Below, piece by piece: positions 20,716-52,585 of a DNA stretch of 52,908 nucleotides. The notes beneath the pieces were generated by a model, which did no database searches, was not told where the DNA came from, and saw only the letters and a list, made by a program, of their open reading frames with translations. The translations under genes and the position numbers were made by a program. This DNA is from Candidatus Methanoperedens sp. BLZ2 (GTDB lineage: Archaea; Halobacteriota; Methanosarcinia; Methanosarcinales; Methanoperedenaceae): positions 1-52,908 of the forward strand of contig NZ_NTMG01000069.1 of the NCBI RefSeq assembly GCF_002487355.1. The letters run 5' to 3'. Position 1 is the stretch's first letter. Each line of letters starts with the position of its first letter.

Positions 20716-21843
20716 ATGGTCAAGAAAAGTAATGTTATGGAAGAAGAGAGCGAAGAAAAGAGAGAAGAAAAGCAAAATATTTTCAATACATGGGCTAACA
20801 GTTATACAGAAATTTCCAAAACGTGGGTAGATTCATACGAAAAACTATACAGGCCATGGCTTGAAGCCACTAAAGAAATGATTGATAAAACAGTTCTTCT
20901 TTCAAAAGAAGCGACGCCACAGAAATACATGGAATTTTATGATGAATGGATCAAAACATATCAGAATACCTTCGGTATATTTTATCCGATCCCTGCGCCA
21001 CAACCCAATAAAGAGATACTTGAGAAGTTCATATCAAGAGCCGATGAATCAAATAAACTATTCAGTTCCTGGATTGCCGAGCTTGAAAAAAATTCCCGGA
21101 TGACAAAAGAAATACTTCAAGGAGAACAGGACCCTGCAAAATATAAGGAATATTATGATGTGTGGACGAAGTCTTATGAAAAAATATTCGATAAGATCCT
21201 TTCACTACCCTCTGAAGAAAGTACAAAGGAGTTATTTGGGGAATATGGCGGCATGCCTGATTTCTATCTGGAAGGCTTTTTGCAGATGTCAAAATTATGG
21301 AGGAGATCATATACGCAGATCTGCGGGCCGATGAATGAATCCATGATGAAACTTTCTAAGAAAATGGCAGAAATCTCACGGGGAAAGGCAAGTCCTGAAA
21401 GCTATAAGGAATTTTATACCTTATGGGTGGATACATATAAAGAAATATATGAAAAATATGGAAAGTCCACCGAGCTTTCCAGGGAAATGTTTGGGAATTT
21501 TATAAAGGCCACCGAAATTTACCTGAGTATGTATAAGTCATGGATAACAGCACTGGAAGAAATGTCAGAGAAAGCGCAGGAGTTGTCAAAACAATCTGAT
21601 CCGGAAACATATAATAAATTTTATAATCTCTGGGTTAAAACCTATGAAAAGGCTTTTGAGAGCTTTTTTGAGGATATGCCAGCAGTAGGGTCTATGAAAG
21701 AGATCATGGAGCCTTTAAAGATCATGACCAGGATGTATACGGATACATTTACAAGGATGTCAAATATGTGGTTGAAACCGAGAGTTCGTTCAGCACCAGC
21801 ATATCCCGGAAAGAATAAAAAAAGAGGGATTCAGACGGCTTAA
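20716..21843 (+). CDS. PhaE/phasin-like helical repeat protein
   Basis: A 375-residue, Trp/Tyr/Lys/Glu-rich helical protein without signal peptide. Four copies of a unit of the form P-x-x-Y-x-x-F/Y-Y-x-x-W-x-x-x-Y-x-x-x-F/Y are visible: PQKYMEFYDEWIKTYQNTF, PAKYKEYYDVWTKSYEKIF, PESYKEFYTLWVDTYKEIY and PETYNKFYNLWVKTYEKAF. Length and composition fit PhaE, the non-catalytic subunit of class III polyhydroxyalkanoate synthase, or a phasin binding PHA granules. PHA storage is known in Methanoperedens. No phaC lies in the window, so the assignment rests on composition and length. A strong hairpin crosses the stop codon. Confidence 0.55.
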   Translation: MVKKSNVMEEESEEKREEKQNIFNTWANSYTEISKTWVDSYEKLYRPWLEATKEMIDKTVLLSKEATPQKYMEFYDEWIKTYQNTFGIFYPIPAPQPNKEILEKFISRADESNKLFSSWIAELEKNSRMTKEILQGEQDPAKYKEYYDVWTKSYEKIFDKILSLPSEESTKELFGEYGGMPDFYLEGFLQMSKLWRRSYTQICGPMNESMMKLSKKMAEISRGKASPESYKEFYTLWVDTYKEIYEKYGKSTELSREMFGNFIKATEIYLSMYKSWITALEEMSEKAQELSKQSDPETYNKFYNLWVKTYEKAFESFFEDMPAVGSMKEIMEPLKIMTRMYTDTFTRMSNMWLKPRVRSAPAYPGKNKKRGIQTA

Positions 21844-23410: not shown

Positions 23411-24121
23411 CTAATAAGGGAAACTAATAATTCTATCCAGATCAACATTTTTCTCAATAAGGGATACAATATTCCCAGGTATTCCTCTTTCCGAGCATAT
23501 AGAAGGATCATTGGGAATAACTCCTGATATGGGGATCCCGGTAAGTTCATTTATGATTCCAGGATTTTTGTCTTCAACGCTACCGCCCCTGTAATTGTTT
23601 ATTATTACCCCTATTATTTTAATCCCTGATCTCTTTGCATATTCTATTGTGAGAACTGTATGGTTTATAGTTCCAAGACCTGCTCTGGCAACGATTATGG
23701 CAGGAATATCCATATATTTTATTAAATCAGAAATCAGGAACTTTTTCTTTACAGGAACAGCAATACCCCCTGCTCCTTCAACAATTACAATATCATATCT
23801 TTTTTCAAGTTCCATGTAAATATTTTTAATAATATCAATGTCTATGCTTATTCCTTCAATTTCTGCAGCGGTCCCTGGCGCCATCGCTTCTTTCAGGAGA
23901 TAAGGGCATGTCAACTTCTCGTCAGCCTTTATTTCGATCACCTTCATCATGAGCTCGGCATCCGGGGAATAAAGTTTACCGTTTCTTATTCCTGCGCCGC
24001 TCTGGACAGCTTTCATCACACCTATGCTATATCCTTTATTTTTAAGGGCCCCTGCAAGTCCTGCTGCTATCACTGTCTTTCCCACGTTTGTATCGGTTCC
24101 TGTAATGAATATCCCGGTCAT
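23411..24121 (-). CDS. bioD: Dethiobiotin synthetase
   Basis: A 236-residue ATP-dependent ligase closing the ureido ring of dethiobiotin. The P-loop GTDTNVGKT is at residues 8-16, VEGAGGIAVPV (about 114) is the conserved active-site strand and the C-terminal part holds the nucleotide base pocket. In the BioU route BioD accepts the carbamated diamine made by BioU. It is the last gene of the biotin operon, 7 bp after bioF. Confidence 0.95.
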   Translation of the reverse strand: MTGIFITGTDTNVGKTVIAAGLAGALKNKGYSIGVMKAVQSGAGIRNGKLYSPDAELMMKVIEIKADEKLTCPYLLKEAMAPGTAAEIEGISIDIDIIKNIYMELEKRYDIVIVEGAGGIAVPVKKKFLISDLIKYMDIPAIIVARAGLGTINHTVLTIEYAKRSGIKIIGVIINNYRGGSVEDKNPGIINELTGIPISGVIPNDPSICSERGIPGNIVSLIEKNVDLDRIISFPY

Positions 24122-24128
24122 ATAATAA

Positions 24129-25283
24129 TCATAGATTGAATTTTTCTTTTACAATTCTAATAGCAACAAGTGCATCGTTTATATCCTGCTTACTATGGGT
24201 TGCCATCAATGTAGTCCTTATCCTGCCTTTACCTTCCGGCACCGTGGGAGGCCTGATTCCCTGGACAAAAATACCCTGTTTTTCAAGCAAAAGAGCGGCT
24301 TTCATGGTCGTATCTGTATCTCCTGTTATTATGGGAACGATCTGAGTTTCACTTTGAATATTAAATCCCACATCAATAAGCCCTTTTTTATAGATCGCGA
24401 CAATCCTCCGGAGTTTTGCTGTCGGATTTTCTTCCCGGATAATATCAATGGCAGCAGTAGCAGCAGCCACAGCCGGCGGTGGAAGTGCAGTTGAGAAAAT
24501 AAATGAACGTGAAACATTTTGAAGATATTCTATAAGCTCGCTATTTCCGGCTATGTATCCTCCGGAGCTTGCAAGGGCTTTGCTAAGTGTTCCCATTGTA
24601 ATATCAGCATCAACATTGAAATGATCTCCTGTACCTCCGGAATGTTTGCCAAGAACGCCAGTAGCATGGGCATCATCCACCATGACCATTGCATCGAACC
24701 TTTCTGCGATCTCTATGATCTCAGGAAGAGGCGCTATATCTCCATCCATACTGAAAACACCATCCGTTACAATGAGTTTTTTGCTGTTTTTCGATGCGCC
24801 AAGCTCTTTTTCAAGACAGGAAATATCTTTATGGGGATAGACTTTCACATCTGCGCGGCTAAGTCTGCAACCATCGATAATGCTTGCATGATTGAGTTCA
24901 TCACTTAGTATCAGATCTCCGCTTTTCATCAAAGCGGATATAGTTCCGATATTTGCCATATATCCCGAGCTGAATACGATCGCATCTTCCGTACCCTTAA
25001 AATCCGCTATTTTTTCTTCCAGCTTATTGTAAATGTCAGTATTCCCGGTAGTCAGCCGGGATCCCCCCGCGCCTGATCCGTATATTTCTATTGCATCAGC
25101 CGCAGCTTTTTTCACTTTTGGGTGAGTGGCCAGGCCAAGGTAATTATTAGACGATAGAAGTATGTATTCCCTACCATCTTTTTTTATCCTTGGGGACTGG
25201 GCAGATCTGATAGTCCTGAGTTCCCGATATAATCCTTTACTTTTAATTTGTCCAAGCTCATCTGAGAGCCATTTCATTTTCAT
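24129..25283 (-). CDS. bioF: 8-amino-7-oxononanoate synthase
   Basis: A 384-residue PLP enzyme joining pimeloyl-thioester and alanine. SSNNYLGLATHP (about 44), GSGAGGSRLTTGN (about 69-81), DELNHASIIDG (about 128) and GTLSKALASSGGY with PLP Lys235 give the alpha-oxoamine synthase signature. It overlaps bioU by 4 bp (ATGA). With BioW upstream in the operon the substrate is probably pimeloyl-CoA rather than the ACP thioester. Confidence 0.95.
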   Translation of the reverse strand: MKMKWLSDELGQIKSKGLYRELRTIRSAQSPRIKKDGREYILLSSNNYLGLATHPKVKKAAADAIEIYGSGAGGSRLTTGNTDIYNKLEEKIADFKGTEDAIVFSSGYMANIGTISALMKSGDLILSDELNHASIIDGCRLSRADVKVYPHKDISCLEKELGASKNSKKLIVTDGVFSMDGDIAPLPEIIEIAERFDAMVMVDDAHATGVLGKHSGGTGDHFNVDADITMGTLSKALASSGGYIAGNSELIEYLQNVSRSFIFSTALPPPAVAAATAAIDIIREENPTAKLRRIVAIYKKGLIDVGFNIQSETQIVPIITGDTDTTMKAALLLEKQGIFVQGIRPPTVPEGKGRIRTTLMATHSKQDINDALVAIRIVKEKFNL

Positions 25284-26284
25284 TTAACGAATCTTGGCAT
25301 GAGTTCGGCTGACCCGAACACACCGTATATTCCACGTTTATGGAGCTCAAAACCGGCTTTCATCCATCCAAGAGCAGGCCCAACTACATTGGCCGCCATT
25401 GTGGTCTCATCACCCAGAATGAACCTGTGGCTTGAAAAAGCCCCATCAAATGTCTTTCCTGTAAGGGTCATCGTAGTGCTTACTGGTTTCCTGGGATTCC
25501 TGGTATCAACTACTCCGCTAACAGTTACTTTTTCGCGGGATACGATACCAGCTCTCTCAAGAAGCACATCATCTGCATGTTCCATATTGTATAATTGGAG
25601 AATACCTCTTCTCTTATCGAGTTCATTTTTTATCTGGGCACATGTCATATTTGCCGCTTTTTCAAGGTTAAAGCCCTCAAGATGCGCTATATCTTCCCGT
25701 ATGGTTGCACGATACGATTCCCAGTTTGATACTCCTACTCCGAAATTTATATCCACATTCGTTACTTCCATAAAAGAATTTGCCGCAATAGCGGCAGCAC
25801 AGGTAAGTAATCCAGGTGTAGCGCCTGCTCCTGTAATATATGTAATACTGGCATTTTTTATCATATCATCCATTCCAAAGATCATCTCAACAGCCTGTGA
25901 CCGTTTCATGGCATCCACCATCACACCCTTAAAACCTGCTTTGGCAAACATCGATACAACCTCAGGGATAAAGTTGTTCGTGAGGTTGGGAAGAGCCAGG
26001 AAAATACCATCAAATTCCCGGCAATTTTCAACAATGCAGGTTATGGCATCATCAGTTCTTATGCCAATATCACCTGGCTTTTTGTTTTCAAGAAGCTCAG
26101 GATCTATCCCATTATGATCGATAATATAGCCGGTCTTGTCAGCAATTGCTGCAAGTCTCATTTCCTTTTTCTGCCCAAGTATTTTTGCGGCTGCCATCCC
26201 AAGACCTCCTGCACCAAGAACAGCGATGTTTGCGGCTTCGTTCCTATCTGGTTTTTTTAATTTCATTACCTGTATTTGTTCCAT
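25280..26284 (-). CDS. bioU: (S)-8-amino-7-oxononanoate synthase BioU, suicide enzyme
   Basis: A 334-residue NAD(P)-binding protein annotated in databases as saccharopine-dehydrogenase-like. I start at ATG 26284, preceded by GAGG. AVLGAGGLGMAAAK (about residues 21-34) is the Rossmann loop. VMVDAMKRSQAVE contains Lys127, at the place of the Lys that BioU sacrifices as amino donor in cyanobacteria. ITYITGAGATPGLLT and HADDVLLERAGIVS also match the cyanobacterial BioU pattern as I remember it. It sits between bioW and bioF, where bioA would be expected, and no bioA is present. The product would be used by BioD. Confidence 0.82.
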   Translation of the reverse strand: MEQIQVMKLKKPDRNEAANIAVLGAGGLGMAAAKILGQKKEMRLAAIADKTGYIIDHNGIDPELLENKKPGDIGIRTDDAITCIVENCREFDGIFLALPNLTNNFIPEVVSMFAKAGFKGVMVDAMKRSQAVEMIFGMDDMIKNASITYITGAGATPGLLTCAAAIAANSFMEVTNVDINFGVGVSNWESYRATIREDIAHLEGFNLEKAANMTCAQIKNELDKRRGILQLYNMEHADDVLLERAGIVSREKVTVSGVVDTRNPRKPVSTTMTLTGKTFDGAFSSHRFILGDETTMAANVVGPALGWMKAGFELHKRGIYGVFGSAELMPRFVK

Positions 26285-26313
26285 AATCATTCCTCAAATT
26301 TTTATCTTTTTTT

Positions 26314-27090
26314 TTATTTTTTTCCAAAAAGCTCTATAATTCCCCTAAATTTAGTGACAAGAACCGGAGTCTGCTCCATCTCAGTAATATATTTTCCATG
26401 GTCAATATTATTCACAAAAAAAACGCGCCCTCCGAATGGGTCACCCTTTTTTTTCAAATGCGGTATCCTTATGTATCCCATTTTTTGGGAGGCCACATAA
26501 CCTGCCGTATATGATGGATCATCAGACCAGCAAAGTTCCGCAATTGTGCCTTTGACCGATTCTACTTTTGTTGCAAGTATAAGCGCTTCGCTTATATTTG
26601 TAAAATACGATGACAATCCTGAAACAGAAAGCGCATTAAAAAGTTCATTTGCAGCTTCTTCTGTTATATCCATACGGGATACACGGATACCGCGAACCTT
26701 ATCGGTTTCAAGCCTGTTACCTTTTAAATCCATGATTATCGCACCCCGCATATTTTCACCAATAGCAGGGCCTTTTTCCAGAAGAGATATACTTTTTTCA
26801 ATGCAAAGTGCCGGTATCCCGAGTTCAAGTAGCAACTTTCTGGCAAGTTTTTTCCCTTCAGTCTCATTTTCAACATTCATCAGAATGAGCGGGAGGGAAG
26901 TTACTTTTTTAATTGGAATTTTTAATGTTTCAACGGTTATATTAATAAGGTCAGGTTCACCTTTTTCATGAGATAGAGCCCGATCTACAAGCCCTGAAAC
27001 AATTGTTTGAATTTTTGTCTTCTCAACGAGATTCTCAGCTCCAGATATGTGTTTTTTGTTTTTTTCTGCTCTCATCCGAACACTAAACAT
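26314..27090 (-). CDS. bioW: 6-carboxyhexanoate-CoA ligase (pimeloyl-CoA synthetase)
   Basis: A 258-residue enzyme that activates pimelate with ATP and CoA. MFSVRMRAEKNKKHISGAE at the start and VRGIRVSRMD, AELCWSDDP and TAGYVASQKMGYIRIP are strong BioW signatures and match Bacillus BioW in order. I use ATG 27090, with GGAGGTG four bases before it; the start overlaps the bioB end by 8 bp. Its presence means pimelate, free or from fatty acid breakdown, feeds the pathway, not BioC/BioH. Confidence 0.93.
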   Translation of the reverse strand: MFSVRMRAEKNKKHISGAENLVEKTKIQTIVSGLVDRALSHEKGEPDLINITVETLKIPIKKVTSLPLILMNVENETEGKKLARKLLLELGIPALCIEKSISLLEKGPAIGENMRGAIIMDLKGNRLETDKVRGIRVSRMDITEEAANELFNALSVSGLSSYFTNISEALILATKVESVKGTIAELCWSDDPSYTAGYVASQKMGYIRIPHLKKKGDPFGGRVFFVNNIDHGKYITEMEQTPVLVTKFRGIIELFGKK

Positions 27091-28057
27091 GAACACCTCC
27101 GGGGACCAGACCAAGATCAATTATCATCTGAATATCATCACGCGGCGTTCTGCCCGCCGTTGTCAGGTAATTGCCAAGGATAAGCCCGTTTGCCCCTGCA
27201 AGAAGACATAAGCTTTGTAAATCCCGGAGATTTTTCTCCCGTCCACCTGCTATTCGGATATTTTTTCCAGGGAGAATGAGACGAAAAACAGCTATTGTTT
27301 TCAGGATTTCAAGGGGATCTATCGGTTTTTCAATGCCAATAGGTGTTCCTTTGATGGGATTCAATATATTTATGGGGATAGAATCAACATCCATATCCCT
27401 CAGCGTGAATGCAAGTTCCAGACGGTCACTTACCGACTCCCCCATTCCGATTATGCCCCCGCAGCAGACTTCAAGGCCCGCATTTTTCGCAACATATATG
27501 GTTTTTATTTTTTCATCATAGGTGTGGGTTGTGCATATTTTGTTAAAAAAGTTCCTTGAGGTCTCAAGGTTATGATGTATTCGTGTAGCACCTGCACTTT
27601 TCAGGGCAAACGCACGTTCATCTGTAAGCACACCTGAAGAAATGCAAACAGATAAACCTGTTTCCTTTCTTATTCTTCGTAAGGAACTTAATATATTCTC
27701 AAAATCTTCGCCATTTACTTCTTTTCCGCTTGTAACAATGCAAAATCTTGCCGCACCTTCTTCTTCCATCATCTGCGCCATGTTGAGTATCTCTTCTTCA
27801 TCCATCAGGGGATAGGGCGTAATTTCAGTATCGTTATGGGCAGATTGTGCACAGAATTTGCAGTCTTCAGAGCATAAACCGCATTTTGCATTTATTATGG
27901 AACAAAGATCAACCCGGTTACCTAGTTTAGAACGGACATGGTTTGCAAGCAAGAATAGCTCCATACATTCATATCCTTTGAAATCCATAAGTTCCATGGC
28001 TTCTGTGAAGTCTATGCTTTTACCGTTTTCAATCTTAGTTCGTAGTTTTTTTAACAT
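27083..28057 (-). CDS. bioB: Biotin synthase
   Basis: A 324-residue radical SAM enzyme inserting sulfur into dethiobiotin. The cluster motif CSEDCKFC is at residues 62-69, with Cys59 before it; NLETSRNFF (about 162), INILNPIKGTP and RIAGGREKN with the Arg that binds the [2Fe-2S] cluster follow. It is the first gene of a five-gene operon and lies 12 bp downstream of the BirA-type operator. Confidence 0.96.
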   Translation of the reverse strand: MLKKLRTKIENGKSIDFTEAMELMDFKGYECMELFLLANHVRSKLGNRVDLCSIINAKCGLCSEDCKFCAQSAHNDTEITPYPLMDEEEILNMAQMMEEEGAARFCIVTSGKEVNGEDFENILSSLRRIRKETGLSVCISSGVLTDERAFALKSAGATRIHHNLETSRNFFNKICTTHTYDEKIKTIYVAKNAGLEVCCGGIIGMGESVSDRLELAFTLRDMDVDSIPINILNPIKGTPIGIEKPIDPLEILKTIAVFRLILPGKNIRIAGGREKNLRDLQSLCLLAGANGLILGNYLTTAGRTPRDDIQMIIDLGLVPGGVHV

Positions 28058-28069
28058 AATGTAAATGGA

Positions 28070-28100
28070 TTGTTAACTTTTATGGTGTAGATGTTGACAA
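28070..28100 (-). promoter_or_regulatory. BirA-type biotin operator
   Basis: TTGTTAAC at 28070-28077 and GTTGACAA at 28093-28100, separated by 15 bp, match the known prokaryotic and archaeal BirA site TTGTnAAC-N14/15-GTTnACAA at every fixed base. It ends 12 bp from the bioB start and lies downstream of the candidate TATA box, so a biotin-loaded BirA would block initiation. The regulator itself is not in the window. Confidence 0.85.
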
Positions 28101-29128: not shown

Positions 29129-29593
29129 ATGATCCATATCGCTGATTCCTCCCTTTTCATTATCGGGAAAAGGATCGAAGGAAATATAATAACCGTCCCC
29201 TCAGTTGTAGATGAGATCAGGGATGAGATGTCTCGTACAATTCTGGAATTAATGAATGTGAGGATCGAGCCTCCGCTTCAAATTTTTATCAGGGAAGTAA
29301 CAACGAAAGCCAGGGCAACCAGGGATAGTGAAGAACTCTCAAAAACCGATATAGACCTGCTGGCAAAGGCTCTTGAATATACCCGGAATGAAGATACTAT
29401 CCTTATCACAGATGATTATGCAGTCCAGAACACTGCAATCCAGCTGGGAATAAAGGTCATGCCCGCAGGACAGAAAAAGATAAAGGACGTTCTTCTATGG
29501 GAAAAATTCTGTATCGGATGCAAGCGGCGGTTCCCGCAGGGAGATGACTGCCCTGTGTGCGGTACGCCTCTTAAGAAAATGAGGATGAAATGA
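29129..29593 (+). CDS. nob1: rRNA maturation endonuclease Nob1
   Basis: A 154-residue PIN-domain endonuclease that cuts the 3' end of pre-16S rRNA in archaea. Acidic catalytic residues are Asp6 (HIADSSLF), the ELSKTDIDLLAKALE stretch (about 79-93) and ITDDYAVQN (about 102). The C-terminal zinc ribbon is CIGC and CPVCG. Both domains in this order and length are diagnostic. CCCGGAGAT precedes the ATG. Confidence 0.93.
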   Translation: MIHIADSSLFIIGKRIEGNIITVPSVVDEIRDEMSRTILELMNVRIEPPLQIFIREVTTKARATRDSEELSKTDIDLLAKALEYTRNEDTILITDDYAVQNTAIQLGIKVMPAGQKKIKDVLLWEKFCIGCKRRFPQGDDCPVCGTPLKKMRMK

Positions 29594-45911: not shown

Positions 45912-47680
<1,769 letters not shown>

Positions 47681-47681
47681 A

Positions 47682-48017
47682 ATGAATGTGAATGATCCGG
47701 AAAAAGATAAAAAGGCCATAAGAATACATAAATTTATTGATAAAGTTGGTGAAAAAGAAGCCCATAAGATCAAAGCGAGGGATGAAAAAAAGAGGATCAT
47801 CTGGTTTGGTCTGGGTATGATGGGTACAATCGGATGGTCAGTGGCAATTCCAACTTTATTAGGAATAGCTCTGGGCATATGGCTTGATTCAAAATGGCCA
47901 GGACGTATTTCCTGGACGCTCACTTTTTTTTTCGCGGGGCTTTTCCTGGGTTGTATAAATGCCTGGTACTGGGTAAGGATGGAACAAAAAAAAATGGAGG
48001 AAAATAATAATGATTGA
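47682..48017 (+). CDS. atpQ: N-ATPase AtpQ (AtpI/Z-like membrane subunit)
   Basis: A 111-residue protein with a charged N-terminus and two helices at about 43-66 and 75-97 (SVAIPTLLGIALGIWLDSKW). The position between atpC and atpR and the shape are those of AtpQ, which is specific to N-ATPase operons and may help ion supply or assembly of the c-ring. It starts 1 bp after atpC. Confidence 0.85.
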   Translation: MNVNDPEKDKKAIRIHKFIDKVGEKEAHKIKARDEKKRIIWFGLGMMGTIGWSVAIPTLLGIALGIWLDSKWPGRISWTLTFFFAGLFLGCINAWYWVRMEQKKMEENNND

Positions 48018-48309
48018 TTTTATGATAATTATATTGAGCCTGGCAATTGGCGCTGGATTGGGGATCTTTTATTTCGGAGGTCTCTGGTTGACATTAAAAA
48101 AGCTTCCTTCATCAGGAAATCCATATTTCCTGACACTGGGAAGTTTTTTTGGCAGAACAGTACTATCTCTTTCTGGATTCTACCTGGTCGCAAGAGGTGG
48201 TCAATGGGAACGATTACTTATCTGTCTTTTCGGTTTCATATTGATGAAGGTCTTTTTGGTTTTCCGCCTGCGGCCTCATAAAGAAGCTATAATTCCAGGG
48301 GTGAAGTGA
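48010..48309 (+). CDS. atpR: N-ATPase AtpR
   Basis: A 99-residue membrane protein with three helices. Arg residues in the helix FGRTVLSLSGFYLVARGG are of the kind proposed to face the c-subunit acidic site in AtpR, a hallmark of N-ATPases. It overlaps atpQ by 8 bp and the atpB start by 4 bp. Confidence 0.85.
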   Translation: MIDFMIIILSLAIGAGLGIFYFGGLWLTLKKLPSSGNPYFLTLGSFFGRTVLSLSGFYLVARGGQWERLLICLFGFILMKVFLVFRLRPHKEAIIPGVK

Positions 48310-49004
48310 ATTTGGTAGATATCAGCCCTGATACCATTATTTTATTGGAATCGGGATTTGTCACTCTTAATGCCACGGTCGTTTTTACATGGCTTGTGAT
48401 GGCATTGATAGTTTTCATAGCCTGGCTGGTAACGCGAAAGCTTTCGGTTGAACCTCCATTATCGCGATCCCAGAACCTTCTTGAAACCATAGTTGACTAC
48501 ATGAGGAGCCAGATACGGGAAATTACTCAGGATGATTCGGATACTTACCTTGTGTTTTCAGGAACTTTGTTCCTTTTCATCGCAGTCTCCAATTTACTCA
48601 CCATTGTGCCGGGATACCATCCACCCACAGGTTCTCTTTATACAACTGCTGCTCTTGCAATATGTGTATTTTTTGCAGTTCCGATATACGGGATATCAAA
48701 AATGGGGACGGTCGCTTATTTTAAACGATATATGCAGCCTACGGTTTTCATGCTGCCATTTAATATTATTGGCGAACTATCACGTACCCTTGCCCTTGCT
48801 GTTCGATTATTCGGAAATATCATGAGCGGAACAATGATAGTCGCCATGCTGCTTGCAGTCGTCCCTTTTTTCCTTCCGGTCATTATGCAGGTCCTGGGGC
48901 TTATAATCGGATTTATCCAGGCATATATTTTTGCAGTTCTTGCTACTGTTTATATTGCATCTGCAACCCGGGTGCATCAAGTGAAACCACAGGAGATAAG
49001 ATAA
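48306..49004 (+). CDS. atpB: N-ATPase subunit a
   Basis: A 232-residue Fo a subunit with GTG start (48306) overlapping the atpR stop. LALAVRLFGNIMSGTMI carries the essential Arg that faces the c-ring. FNIIGELSRTLAL and IGFIQAYIFAVLATVYI are the conserved helices. Five to six membrane helices. Confidence 0.95.
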   Translation: MNLVDISPDTIILLESGFVTLNATVVFTWLVMALIVFIAWLVTRKLSVEPPLSRSQNLLETIVDYMRSQIREITQDDSDTYLVFSGTLFLFIAVSNLLTIVPGYHPPTGSLYTTAALAICVFFAVPIYGISKMGTVAYFKRYMQPTVFMLPFNIIGELSRTLALAVRLFGNIMSGTMIVAMLLAVVPFFLPVIMQVLGLIIGFIQAYIFAVLATVYIASATRVHQVKPQEIR

Positions 49005-49093
49005 CAGGATGAATTTGAAATATGTAATGATAGATGTAATATTAGAGATATGTAACGATAGATGTATATTAGAGGAAAAAGGAGGGAAATGAA

Positions 49094-49369
49094 ATGGATA
49101 GCAGTATGGAAATAATTGCAGCAGTTTCGATCTTTACAGCAGGAATGACCATAGCTATAGGCTCAATAGGTCCGGCCATCGGGGAAGCCTGGGCCCTGGC
49201 GCGTGCACTGGGCGCTATTGCTCAACAGCCCGATGAGGCAAATACCATCACACGCACTTTATTCGTAGGTCTTGCTATGGTAGAATCAACAGCAATTTAT
49301 TGCTTTGTCATTTCGATCATACTGATCTTTGCTAACCCGTTCTGGAATTATGCAGTGGCAGGAGGATAG
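49094..49369 (+). CDS. atpE: N-ATPase subunit c
   Basis: A 91-residue two-helix c subunit. Helix 1 has GPAIGEAWALARALGAIAQQP with Glu31; helix 2 has FVGLAMVESTAIYCF with Val63, Glu64, Ser65, Thr66 and Tyr69. Glu64/Ser65/Thr66/Tyr69 match the Na+ ligand pattern of Ilyobacter c subunit, offset by one, but its Gln is Glu31 here. This two-carboxylate form is usual in N-ATPases. GGAGG is placed before the ATG. A 90-bp spacer precedes the gene with the direct repeat ATGTAAYGATAGATGTA. Confidence 0.94.
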   Translation: MDSSMEIIAAVSIFTAGMTIAIGSIGPAIGEAWALARALGAIAQQPDEANTITRTLFVGLAMVESTAIYCFVISIILIFANPFWNYAVAGG

Positions 49370-49374
49370 GACAA

Positions 49375-50151
49375 TTGGTACAGATCGACTATTTCACTTT
49401 TTTTGCCCAGATAGTTAATTTCCTGGTACTTATCCTGTTATTGAAATTCTTTCTGTACGGCCAAATCATCAAAGCAATGGATGAAAGGGAAAAAAGAATT
49501 ATCCTGAGATTACAGGAAGCAAAAGACTTAAATGACGAAGCGGAAAACGAAATTGGAACATACCAAAAAAATATCCGGGAATTGTCCGAAAAGAGAGAAT
49601 CGATGTTAATGGAGGCCAGGAAAGAGGCGCAAACGGTCAGTGAAGAACTGATAAAAAAAGCCCGGTCTGAGGTCAAAGAAAGCAAAGATAAATGGTTTGA
49701 AGAGGTCGAGCGCCAGAAAAAAATATTTCTTACAGATCTTCGAAGGCGCTCAGGTGAAAAGATATATTCTATCACCCGCCGGGTTTTAAAGGATCTTGCA
49801 AATGATGAACTGGAGATCCATATTATCAATACATTCATCAAGCGTCTTGAGACTATGGGGGAAAAAGAAAAGGAAGCCATCAAAGAATTTATCCGGAACC
49901 CTCAGGAAAAAATCAATATAAAAAGCTCATTTACGATCCCGGGAACTTTGCCCCAAAGGATAAAGGAAGCTGTCCGGGATCAAATTGGTAATGAAGCGAA
50001 GTTTCAATTCGAAATTGAACCTGGCCTGTTATGTGGAATTGAACTGTATACCCGCGATAAACAAATTTCATGGAGTCTTGGCAGTTATCTGGATACCCTG
50101 GAAGAGGATATTTCAAGATCTTTCGACCGGAGGGGGATGGAAGAAAAATGA
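49375..50151 (+). CDS. atpF: N-ATPase subunit b (long form)
   Basis: A 258-residue b subunit: TTG start 49375, preceded by GGAGG, one N-terminal membrane helix (about 8-28), and a long charged coiled coil. It is about 90 residues longer than common b subunits; the C-terminal part ([20 protein letters not shown] to end) may replace the missing delta subunit as the stator contact. The stop overlaps the atpA start (ATGA). Confidence 0.9.
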
Positions 50152-51674
50152 AAGACACAGGATTGCTTACAGTTCTTGATGAGACGTTTGAAATCCTTGA
50201 TCAACTGATGGAAAAGGATAGGACATTGATCCATTCCAGGGAGGTCGGAAAAATTACGTTCATAGGGAAAGGTATTGCCCGGATCACAGGATTAACCAAT
50301 GTAAAATTCGAGGAACTCATTAGATTTCCGGGCAATAAATTGGGAATTGCGTTCAACCTGGATCCTGATGAGGTTGCAGTAGTAATGCTCGGTGACAGTA
50401 AAGATATAAAAGCCGGCCAGGAAGTATATCGCACGGGCAGGGTAATGGAAGTTCCTGTAGGAGAGTCACTCCTTGGTCGGGTTGTCGATCCAATGGGAAG
50501 GCCGCTTGATGAACAGGGTCCGATCAACTCACAGGAAAACCGATCTATTGAGCATGAGGCCCCAGGAATTATGGAACGTGCTCCTGTGAATGTTCCGTTG
50601 CAAACAGGTATTCAGGTTGTGGATGCACTTATTCCAATTGGCCGGGGACAACGTGAATTGATACTTGGCGACCGCCAGACAGGTAAGACCGCTATTGCCC
50701 TTGATACTATCATCAACCAGAAAGATAAAGATGTCATGTGCATCTACTGCGCTATCGGGCAGCAAAGTTCAGCTGTTGCAAGGGTGATCGCTGATTTACG
50801 AATTCATGGGGCAATGAAGAATTGTATTGTAGTTGTGGTTTCAGGTGATGATCCACCAGGATTGAACTTTATTGCTCCTTATGCTGCCACCACAATAGCA
50901 GAGTATTTCATGGAAAAGAGACGAGATGTACTGATCATATACGACGATCTTACCCGTCATGCCCGTTCTTACAGGGAATTATCCCTCTTGCTCCGGCGTC
51001 CGCCTGCCAGGGAAGCTTATCCTGGGGATATTTTCTATATCCATTCCCGGTTACTTGAGCGGTCCACACACCTTCGGGAAGGCGGATCTCTTACAGCTTT
51101 GCCTGTTGTTGAAACAGAGGCACAGAATATCGCAGCATACATCCCCACAAACCTTATCTCTATTACCGATGGCCAGATTTACCTCTCCCCGCGCCTATTC
51201 CATGAGGGGATCTTACCCTCTGTGGATGTAGGGAAATCTGTTTCCCGTGTGGGCGGGAAGACACAGTTGCCTGCGTATCGCGAGGTTGCAGGAGATCTGC
51301 GTCTTTCTTATTCACAGTTCGAGGAACTTGAGATATTTGCGCGTTTTGGCACACATCTTGACGAGGGGACAAGGAATACACTGGAGCGCGGGCGCCGCGT
51401 CCGCGAAGTGTTAAAACAGGCGCAATACGAACCCATGCCTGTCCCTGAACAGATAGCTGTTCTTCTGGCTGTGACCAATGGTGTCTTTGATGAACTTCCA
51501 ATTCAAGACATCACTGATGCCAAAGTAAAAGTTCAGAAAGCAGTAGTTGAAAAACTGCCTGACCTGTGTCTTCGTATTCTTTCAGGAGAAAAATTAAAGA
51601 AAGAAGATCGTGAAGCTCTTCTGGATGTGGCCAGAGATGCTGTGAATTCAAAAAAAGGAGAAAAAATAAAATAA
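50148..51674 (+). CDS. atpA: N-ATPase subunit alpha
   Basis: A 508-residue alpha subunit; ATG 50148 overlaps atpF by 4 bp, so the longer frame from 50070 is not used. [13 protein letters not shown] (about 172) is the non-catalytic P-loop, [20 protein letters not shown] the DELSEED-like region and [15 protein letters not shown] the family signature. Confidence 0.96.
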
Positions 51675-51688
51675 AAGGAAACAAATAA

Positions 51689-52585
51689 ATGGAACTCCTT
51701 GAAACGCTAAAAAGAAAGATCAATAGCGCAGAAGAATTGCAATCCCTGGTAAAGACCATGAAAGCGCTTGCAGCAGTGAGTATAAGGGAGCATGAACAGG
51801 CCGTAGAATCATTAAAAGAGTATCACAAAACCATTGAAATGGGATTTCATATTCTTCTGCAGAATCGACCGGATGAGGAAGTGGGTGAAGCCGGATATGT
51901 TGAGAAAAACCGTCTTTGTGCGATTGTTTTCGGCTCTGAAAGAGGTATGTGCGGCCAGTTCAACGAGAAAATTTCAATTTTTGCATTAGACAGGATGAAT
52001 GAACTTGAGATAAAACCTCAGGACAGGACAGTATTTGCCCTGGGCGACCGTGTTATCGCGCGACTTGAGGAAGCAGGACAACCCATAGACAAGCGTTTTT
52101 CAATATCAGGATCAAATATCGGATTCACCCTGCAGGAAGTTTTGATCAATATCGAGGAATTTCGATTGAAAAAAGATATAGACCGGATCGTGCTTTTTTA
52201 TAATAGACCTGCAGCAGGAACATCTTTTCAGCCGTTTATGGTATATCTTCTACCTTTTGATCCTGAATGGATCAGTAACTTATCAGGGAAAAAGTGGCCA
52301 TCGCGGAATCTGCCAACATTCACTATGGACTGGAGCAGCCTTTTTTCTTCATTAACCCGCCAGTATCTGTTTTTTTCATTGTACCGCGCTTTTGTAGAAT
52401 CAATTGCAAGCGAGAATGCCAGCAGGCTTGCATCAATGCAAGTAGCAGAAAAGAATATAGAAGAACGTTTGAGGGATATGAATACCGGATTCAACCTCCA
52501 GCGCCAGACTTCGATAACATCGGAATTATTGGATATTATGACAGGATTTGAAGCGCTTATGGGGAAGTCAATTACCCCCGAATAG
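51689..52585 (+). CDS. atpG: N-ATPase subunit gamma
   Basis: A 298-residue rotor shaft subunit. ETLKRKINSAEELQSLVKTMKALAAVS at the N-terminus and FVESIASENASRLASMQVAEKN plus the final helix are the coiled-coil ends. The middle is divergent from common F-ATPases, as in other N-ATPases. Last gene of the operon. The end overlaps the convergent TnpB gene by 14 bp, so the element may have set the last residues. Confidence 0.88.
   Translation: MELLETLKRKINSAEELQSLVKTMKALAAVSIREHEQAVESLKEYHKTIEMGFHILLQNRPDEEVGEAGYVEKNRLCAIVFGSERGMCGQFNEKISIFALDRMNELEIKPQDRTVFALGDRVIARLEEAGQPIDKRFSISGSNIGFTLQEVLINIEEFRLKKDIDRIVLFYNRPAAGTSFQPFMVYLLPFDPEWISNLSGKKWPSRNLPTFTMDWSSLFSSLTRQYLFFSLYRAFVESIASENASRLASMQVAEKNIEERLRDMNTGFNLQRQTSITSELLDIMTGFEALMGKSITPE

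Follow-up and report, generated by a model that had tools for sequence, protein, structure and literature searches.

The window analysed here, a whole stretch of 52,908 bases, is the entire contig NZ_NTMG01000069.1 (C33) of the genome of Candidatus Methanoperedens sp. BLZ2 (G000; 3.74 Mb, 99.99% complete), Methanoperedens being a lineage of Methanosarcinales. On its minus strand, from 28057 to 23411, five intact genes follow each other in the order bioB-bioW-bioU-bioF-bioD, with no room for further genes between them. We conclude with high confidence that they form a complete operon for making biotin from free pimelate by way of BioW and the suicide enzyme BioU, probably controlled by BirA. 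The features of the locus are:

28070 to 28100, no strand: BirA-type biotin operator TTGTTAAC-N15-GTTGACAA, a 31-base-pair palindrome that ends shortly before the start codon of bioB (28057).
27083 to 28057, minus strand: bioB, biotin synthase, 324 amino acids; TIGR00433 with E 1.7e-123 and 411.7 bits (cut-off 225), Pfam BATS and Radical_SAM.
26314 to 27090, minus strand: bioW, 6-carboxyhexanoate (pimelate)-coenzyme A (CoA) ligase; NF002360 with 273.7 bits (cut-off 226), Pfam BioW with E 1.3e-79.
25280 to 26290, minus strand: bioU, predicted single-turnover diaminopelargonate(-carbamate) synthase, from matches to BioU structures in the PDB, the fold, and K129 and H238.
24129 to 25283, minus strand: bioF; TIGR00858 with 470.7 bits (cut-off 426.45), pyridoxal phosphate lysine K235, start overlapping the bioU stop.
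23411 to 24121, minus strand: bioD, dethiobiotin synthase; TIGR00347 with 177.2 bits (cut-off 83.3), P-loop GTDTNVGKT.

All operon genes besides bioU pass curated NCBIfam cut-offs, BioW also that of TIGR01204 (215.2 vs 193.55 bits), and BioB has the radical SAM motif CxxxCxxC at C62, C66 and C69. The start of bioW is better placed at the ATG at 27090 than at the TTG at 27120, and overlaps bioB. For bioU there is an upstream ATG at 26290, so the lysine numbered 127 in a preliminary description of this DNA becomes K129. The overlaps of bioB with bioW and of bioU with bioF, together with remaining intergenic gaps of 23 and 7 bases, are the pattern expected for one transcript. Scans for bacterial-type promoters and intrinsic terminators gave no matches above chance. 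The preliminary description had placed these five genes at 23411-28100, and they are indeed intact there by family models and BioU homology; the end at 28100 also fits, as the span then includes the operator upstream of bioB. The observation is confirmed and its core interpretation is supported.

Judging by sequence, the third protein of the operon is a full-length BioU, with a similarity far beyond chance. It matches the PDB entries of Synechocystis BioU, Slr0355 (6ir4, 6itd, 6k36-38), with E-values of 1e-107 to 1e-108 over residues 21-336, and the two proteins are 53.7% identical over the full length. K129 falls on a position occupied by Lys in 6ir4 but by Ala in 6itd, whose title is 'BioU (K124A)'; this is the position of the suicide lysine Lys124. 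The claim that this lysine sits on the BioU donor lysine is therefore borne out by the alignment to the Synechocystis protein. H238, within the motif MEHADD, corresponds to His233 of Slr0355 when counted along the aligned chain (6k38 is titled 'BioU (H233A)') and is invariant. The donor lysine is kept in all 44 aligned sequences that cover the site.

The protein was modelled from an alignment of 20 relatives (predicted local distance difference test, pLDDT, 87.7), and the model was compared to the PDB using Foldseek. Its top five matches are the five BioU structures, with template modelling (TM) scores of 0.87-0.91, and forms conjugated to diaminopelargonate (DAPA) are among them. The next folds, well behind at TM scores of 0.5-0.6, are meso-diaminopimelate (about 0.55), lysine and amine dehydrogenases. 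As these dehydrogenases use free ammonia, and as a single-use protein is costly for an energy-limited methanotroph, it can be speculated that the protein is BioU-like but works as a multiple-turnover amine dehydrogenase, in which K129 would do no more than bind the substrate through a Schiff base, with ammonia or a free amino acid as the donor of the amine. However, both K129 and H238 are invariant across all full-length relatives, the characterised suicide enzyme included, and the top fold matches are to BioU only, with DAPA-conjugated forms among them. We therefore consider multiple turnover improbable, although it is the least improbable of the alternatives, and prefer a single-use BioU.

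The step assigned to BioU is usually made by BioA, a reusable enzyme. The BioA model TIGR00508 (cut-off 405 bits) finds four class III aminotransferases, all below the cut-off. The best match (289.9 bits, contig C67) was rejected as a candidate: at 520 bits with the ArgD model it is an ArgD, and its gene adjoins hisC. The second candidate, on contig C36, was also rejected; its neighbour is an aldehyde dehydrogenase and its best score is with an acetylornithine/aspartate aminotransferase family, but it passes no cut-off among the families compared. One of these weak matches, the C36 protein for instance, which no cut-off assigns, could in principle serve as an unrecognised BioA with BioU as a backup. 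This is very unlikely, as none reaches 405 bits, both examined proteins are nearest to other families and sit outside any bio operon, and the remaining two are weaker still (127 and 68 bits). To the extent that sequence models can tell, a recognisable BioA is absent from this nearly complete genome; a bioA homolog elsewhere in it, which the preliminary description had named as part of a possible refutation, did not emerge.

Some points weigh against the proposed biotin route. BioU scores 423.6 bits with NCBIfam NF047886, below the equivalog cut-off of 600, and the same cut-off is reached by none of the 393 genomes in our sample of the phylum. The activities of the operon enzymes are predictions from sequence, and to our knowledge the source of pimelate in archaea is not known. 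The NF047886 cut-off seems to be set for closer, presumably cyanobacterial, sequences; thus, the formal NCBIfam naming fails while the homology to BioU stands.

The operator palindrome TTGTNAAC-N15-GTTNACAA has a single match in the window, where shuffling gives 0.01 expected. Of the 14 aligned copies from the genus, 12 have this 31-base-pair motif unchanged immediately before bioB, and the other two are off by about one base; as far as checked, every match in the loci compared lies directly upstream of bioB. The consensus is similar to the BirA box, TTGTAAACC-N15/16-GGTTTACAA. BirA of this genome (324 amino acids) matches the ligase model TIGR00121 over the cut-off, with 249 bits, and its N-terminal repressor-like domain matches TIGR00122 with 49.7 bits (E 2.6e-13), under the cut-off of 70. 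From these features, the operon is probably controlled by BirA.

Next to birA lies a pycA-like gene. PycB has a biotin carrier domain and is the sole biotin carrier found in the genome besides a lipoyl-type E2; the names pycA and E2 are readings of open reading frames. A single biotinylated enzyme agrees with the very low biotin demand proposed in the preliminary description, and low demand is compatible with our data, but it is an unproven deduction that would be opposed by the second operon in the same genome bin (see below) if both copies were the organism's own.

We suggest that the pathway would run as follows. BioW would activate pimelate using ATP and CoA, and BioF would join pimeloyl-CoA and alanine into 8-amino-7-oxononanoate (KAPA). 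KAPA would then be covalently joined to the side-chain amine of K129 in BioU, and the adduct reduced by NAD(P)H. After uptake of CO2, oxidation would release diaminopelargonate-carbamate, and K129 would have lost its amine; a BioU molecule could thus act only once. BioD would close the ureido ring and BioB insert the sulfur. BirA would load biotin onto PycB and, with ample biotin, repress the operon via the operator at 28070-28100. The gene identities and their order, the catalytic residues, the operator and the lack of a recognisable BioA are supported directly by the genome analysis. The chemistry of BioU, single turnover included, is carried over from Synechocystis BioU (Sakaki 2020, as related in PMC12915131 and PMC7133116), and repression by BirA from other organisms. 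The proposal that the operon codes for every step from pimelate, with BioU at the diaminopelargonate step, is upheld by the family models, the kept equivalents of K124 and H233 and the lack of BioA.

To follow the distribution, 40 genomes of relatives were compared, 24 of them from the genus Ca. Methanoperedens. BioU is present in 12 of the 24, always in the order bioB-W-U-F-D and in 14 copies in total. Across the 40 related genomes, the 15 with BioB are exactly the 15 with BioU; in the three positive genomes from another family of the order, BioU is separate from a bioB-bioW pair. Among the 12 members of the genus that lack BioU, 11 keep a carrier protein of PycB size (pyruvate-carboxylase type). 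These 11 are therefore predicted to need biotin from outside and, from their gene content, look auxotrophic.

In the wider phylum sample, BioU is found in 27 of 393 genomes, most of which have bioB-BioU-bioF, some with bioD, and no BioW within the stretch retrieved. Named plasmids of Haloferax, Natrinema, Natronococcus and Haladaptatus carry BioU at 41-51% identity, the same as in the phylum-sample genomes, and the carriers in the sample are therefore probably haloarchaea. On the Haloferax larsenii plasmid NZ_CP078064.1 the cluster reads bioB, 'transcriptional regulator', bioF, bioD, and the 'regulator' is BioU (L137, 68444-69472); the RefSeq label thus hides BioU in the public annotation. The label is a candidate for re-annotation in many haloarchaea.

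Taken at face value, this label, or 'hypothetical protein' on other haloarchaeal plasmids, would suggest that the BioU-like protein is regulatory, or that it serves a different biotin-like metabolite. Such a role is, however, the least probable of those considered here: the protein strictly co-occurs with BioB and shares an operon with bioF and bioD, its catalytic residues are kept, BioA is missing, and Pfam finds no DNA-binding domain in it.

The full bioB-W-U-F-D order recurs in G169 (contig C76, L065), a member of a further, distant family of the phylum; its BioU, only 42% identical, is of the haloarchaeal type and has a long branch. In the tree, BioU of Methanoperedens falls together with the forms from cyanobacteria and Abditibacterium, apart from the haloarchaeal forms. 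As the tree has long branches and includes one cyanobacterium, we do not claim a direction of transfer. The preliminary description called the fixed place of BioU in an archaeal operon with BioW unusual. Given the haloarchaeal clusters and G169, archaeal bio operons with BioU are not unique to Methanoperedens, but the presence of BioW together with BioU does look unusual. Searches for BioU on viral contigs found none, and plasmid DNA resembling the operon was limited to short bioB and bioF matches. The Abditibacterium gene (L063, 7953-8924, 55% identical) adjoins FabG-like and beta-ketoacyl-synthase-like genes, which, as read from open reading frames, perhaps form a pimelate-making cluster.

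A second complete bioB-W-U-F-D operon lies in the same genome bin (L024, G000:C27:64998-69697), with a BioU that is 84.2% identical. Similarly, the 152-kb contig C10 of genome G003 holds two complete bio operons (L025 and L026), about 74 kb apart, whose BioU copies fall on different branches of the genus tree. Over about 100 kb, C27 and G003 C10 share mostly 95-99% identity, while other contigs are 82-92% identical, i.e. differ by 8-18%. No tRNA was found on C27, and for a 20-kb piece of it that was tested the genome holds only its own 100% copy. From a reading of its open reading frames without a family scan, C27 also carries nitrate-reductase-like and multihaem cytochrome genes. Given the identity of C27 to G003 C10, we do not regard it as proven that the second operon is a paralogue residing in one and the same cell; C27 may be a recent transfer, a mobile replicon or a case of misbinning. 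Because of this ambiguity, the idea that two operons raise the dose of an enzyme of which each molecule works once is only a lead, and one that opposes low demand.

Contamination was considered for the window's contig and ruled out, as the genome has no second copy of its gene for a Nob1-like PIN/Zn-ribbon protein (29129-29593, plus strand); in addition, the other genes of the window are 82-92% identical to relatives, as for another contig. The Nob1-like gene adjoins the bio operon in several members of the genus. Elsewhere in the window, 20716-21843 (plus strand) encodes a polyhydroxyalkanoate (PHA) synthase subunit PhaE / phasin-like protein, with 87% identity in G021. At 45930-52585 (plus strand) lies an 'alternate' F1F0 ATPase operon of the N-ATPase type, of which beta, F0 subunit A, alpha and gamma score above their curated cut-offs; N-ATPases are reported in Methanosarcina, and their presence in an archaeon agrees with this.

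The kind of enzyme is thus known; what is likely new is that it is paired with BioW and regularly used in Methanoperedens, together with the probable BirA-type control and a likely role as the missing archaeal substitute for BioA. BioU appears to fill the BioA gap reported for Halobacteria, and Methanoperedens, with its complete set, is an exception to the second gap that the literature reports. A broader picture, which we put forward as a doubtful possibility, is that archaea turn pimelate into biotin stoichiometrically, through BioW and BioU, by a route that is gained or lost as a unit in Methanoperedens; two operons in some species, one possibly mobile or horizontally exchanged, would raise the dose of the single-use enzyme, and in those Halobacteriota that make biotin, DAPA would usually be formed by BioU, not BioA. 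The analysis gives Methanoperedens a complete biotin set, makes an archaeal suicide enzyme testable and corrects the haloarchaeal 'transcriptional regulator' label. It also predicts which half of the Methanoperedens species rely on partners for biotin, which is relevant to growing uncultured methane oxidisers.

In the literature searched we found no report of an archaeal BioU, but the primary BioU paper lies outside that search and an earlier mention is possible. PMC12915131, PMC7133116 and PMC9302846, citing Sakaki 2020, describe BioU of Synechocystis as an enzyme that stands in for BioA and turns over once. The Methanoperedens protein shares with it the fold, the full-length identity given above and the equivalents of Lys124 and His233 but, in contrast to it, sits in an archaeal five-gene operon with BioW. 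In Methanococcales the biotin set is bioW-F-A-D-B (PMC6138646). That set is likewise archaeal and complete, with BioW activating pimelate; however, it uses BioA where Methanoperedens uses BioU. The haloarchaeal cluster also has a BioU homolog between bioB and bioF, with the suicide lysine kept in the haloarchaeal-type genomes aligned, but its BioU is on a separate deep branch and BioW is not in the cluster. The BioI-BioW route of Bacillus subtilis is similar in that BioW makes pimeloyl-CoA from free pimelate, although B. subtilis uses BioA, not BioU, and its pimelate comes from fatty-acid synthesis.

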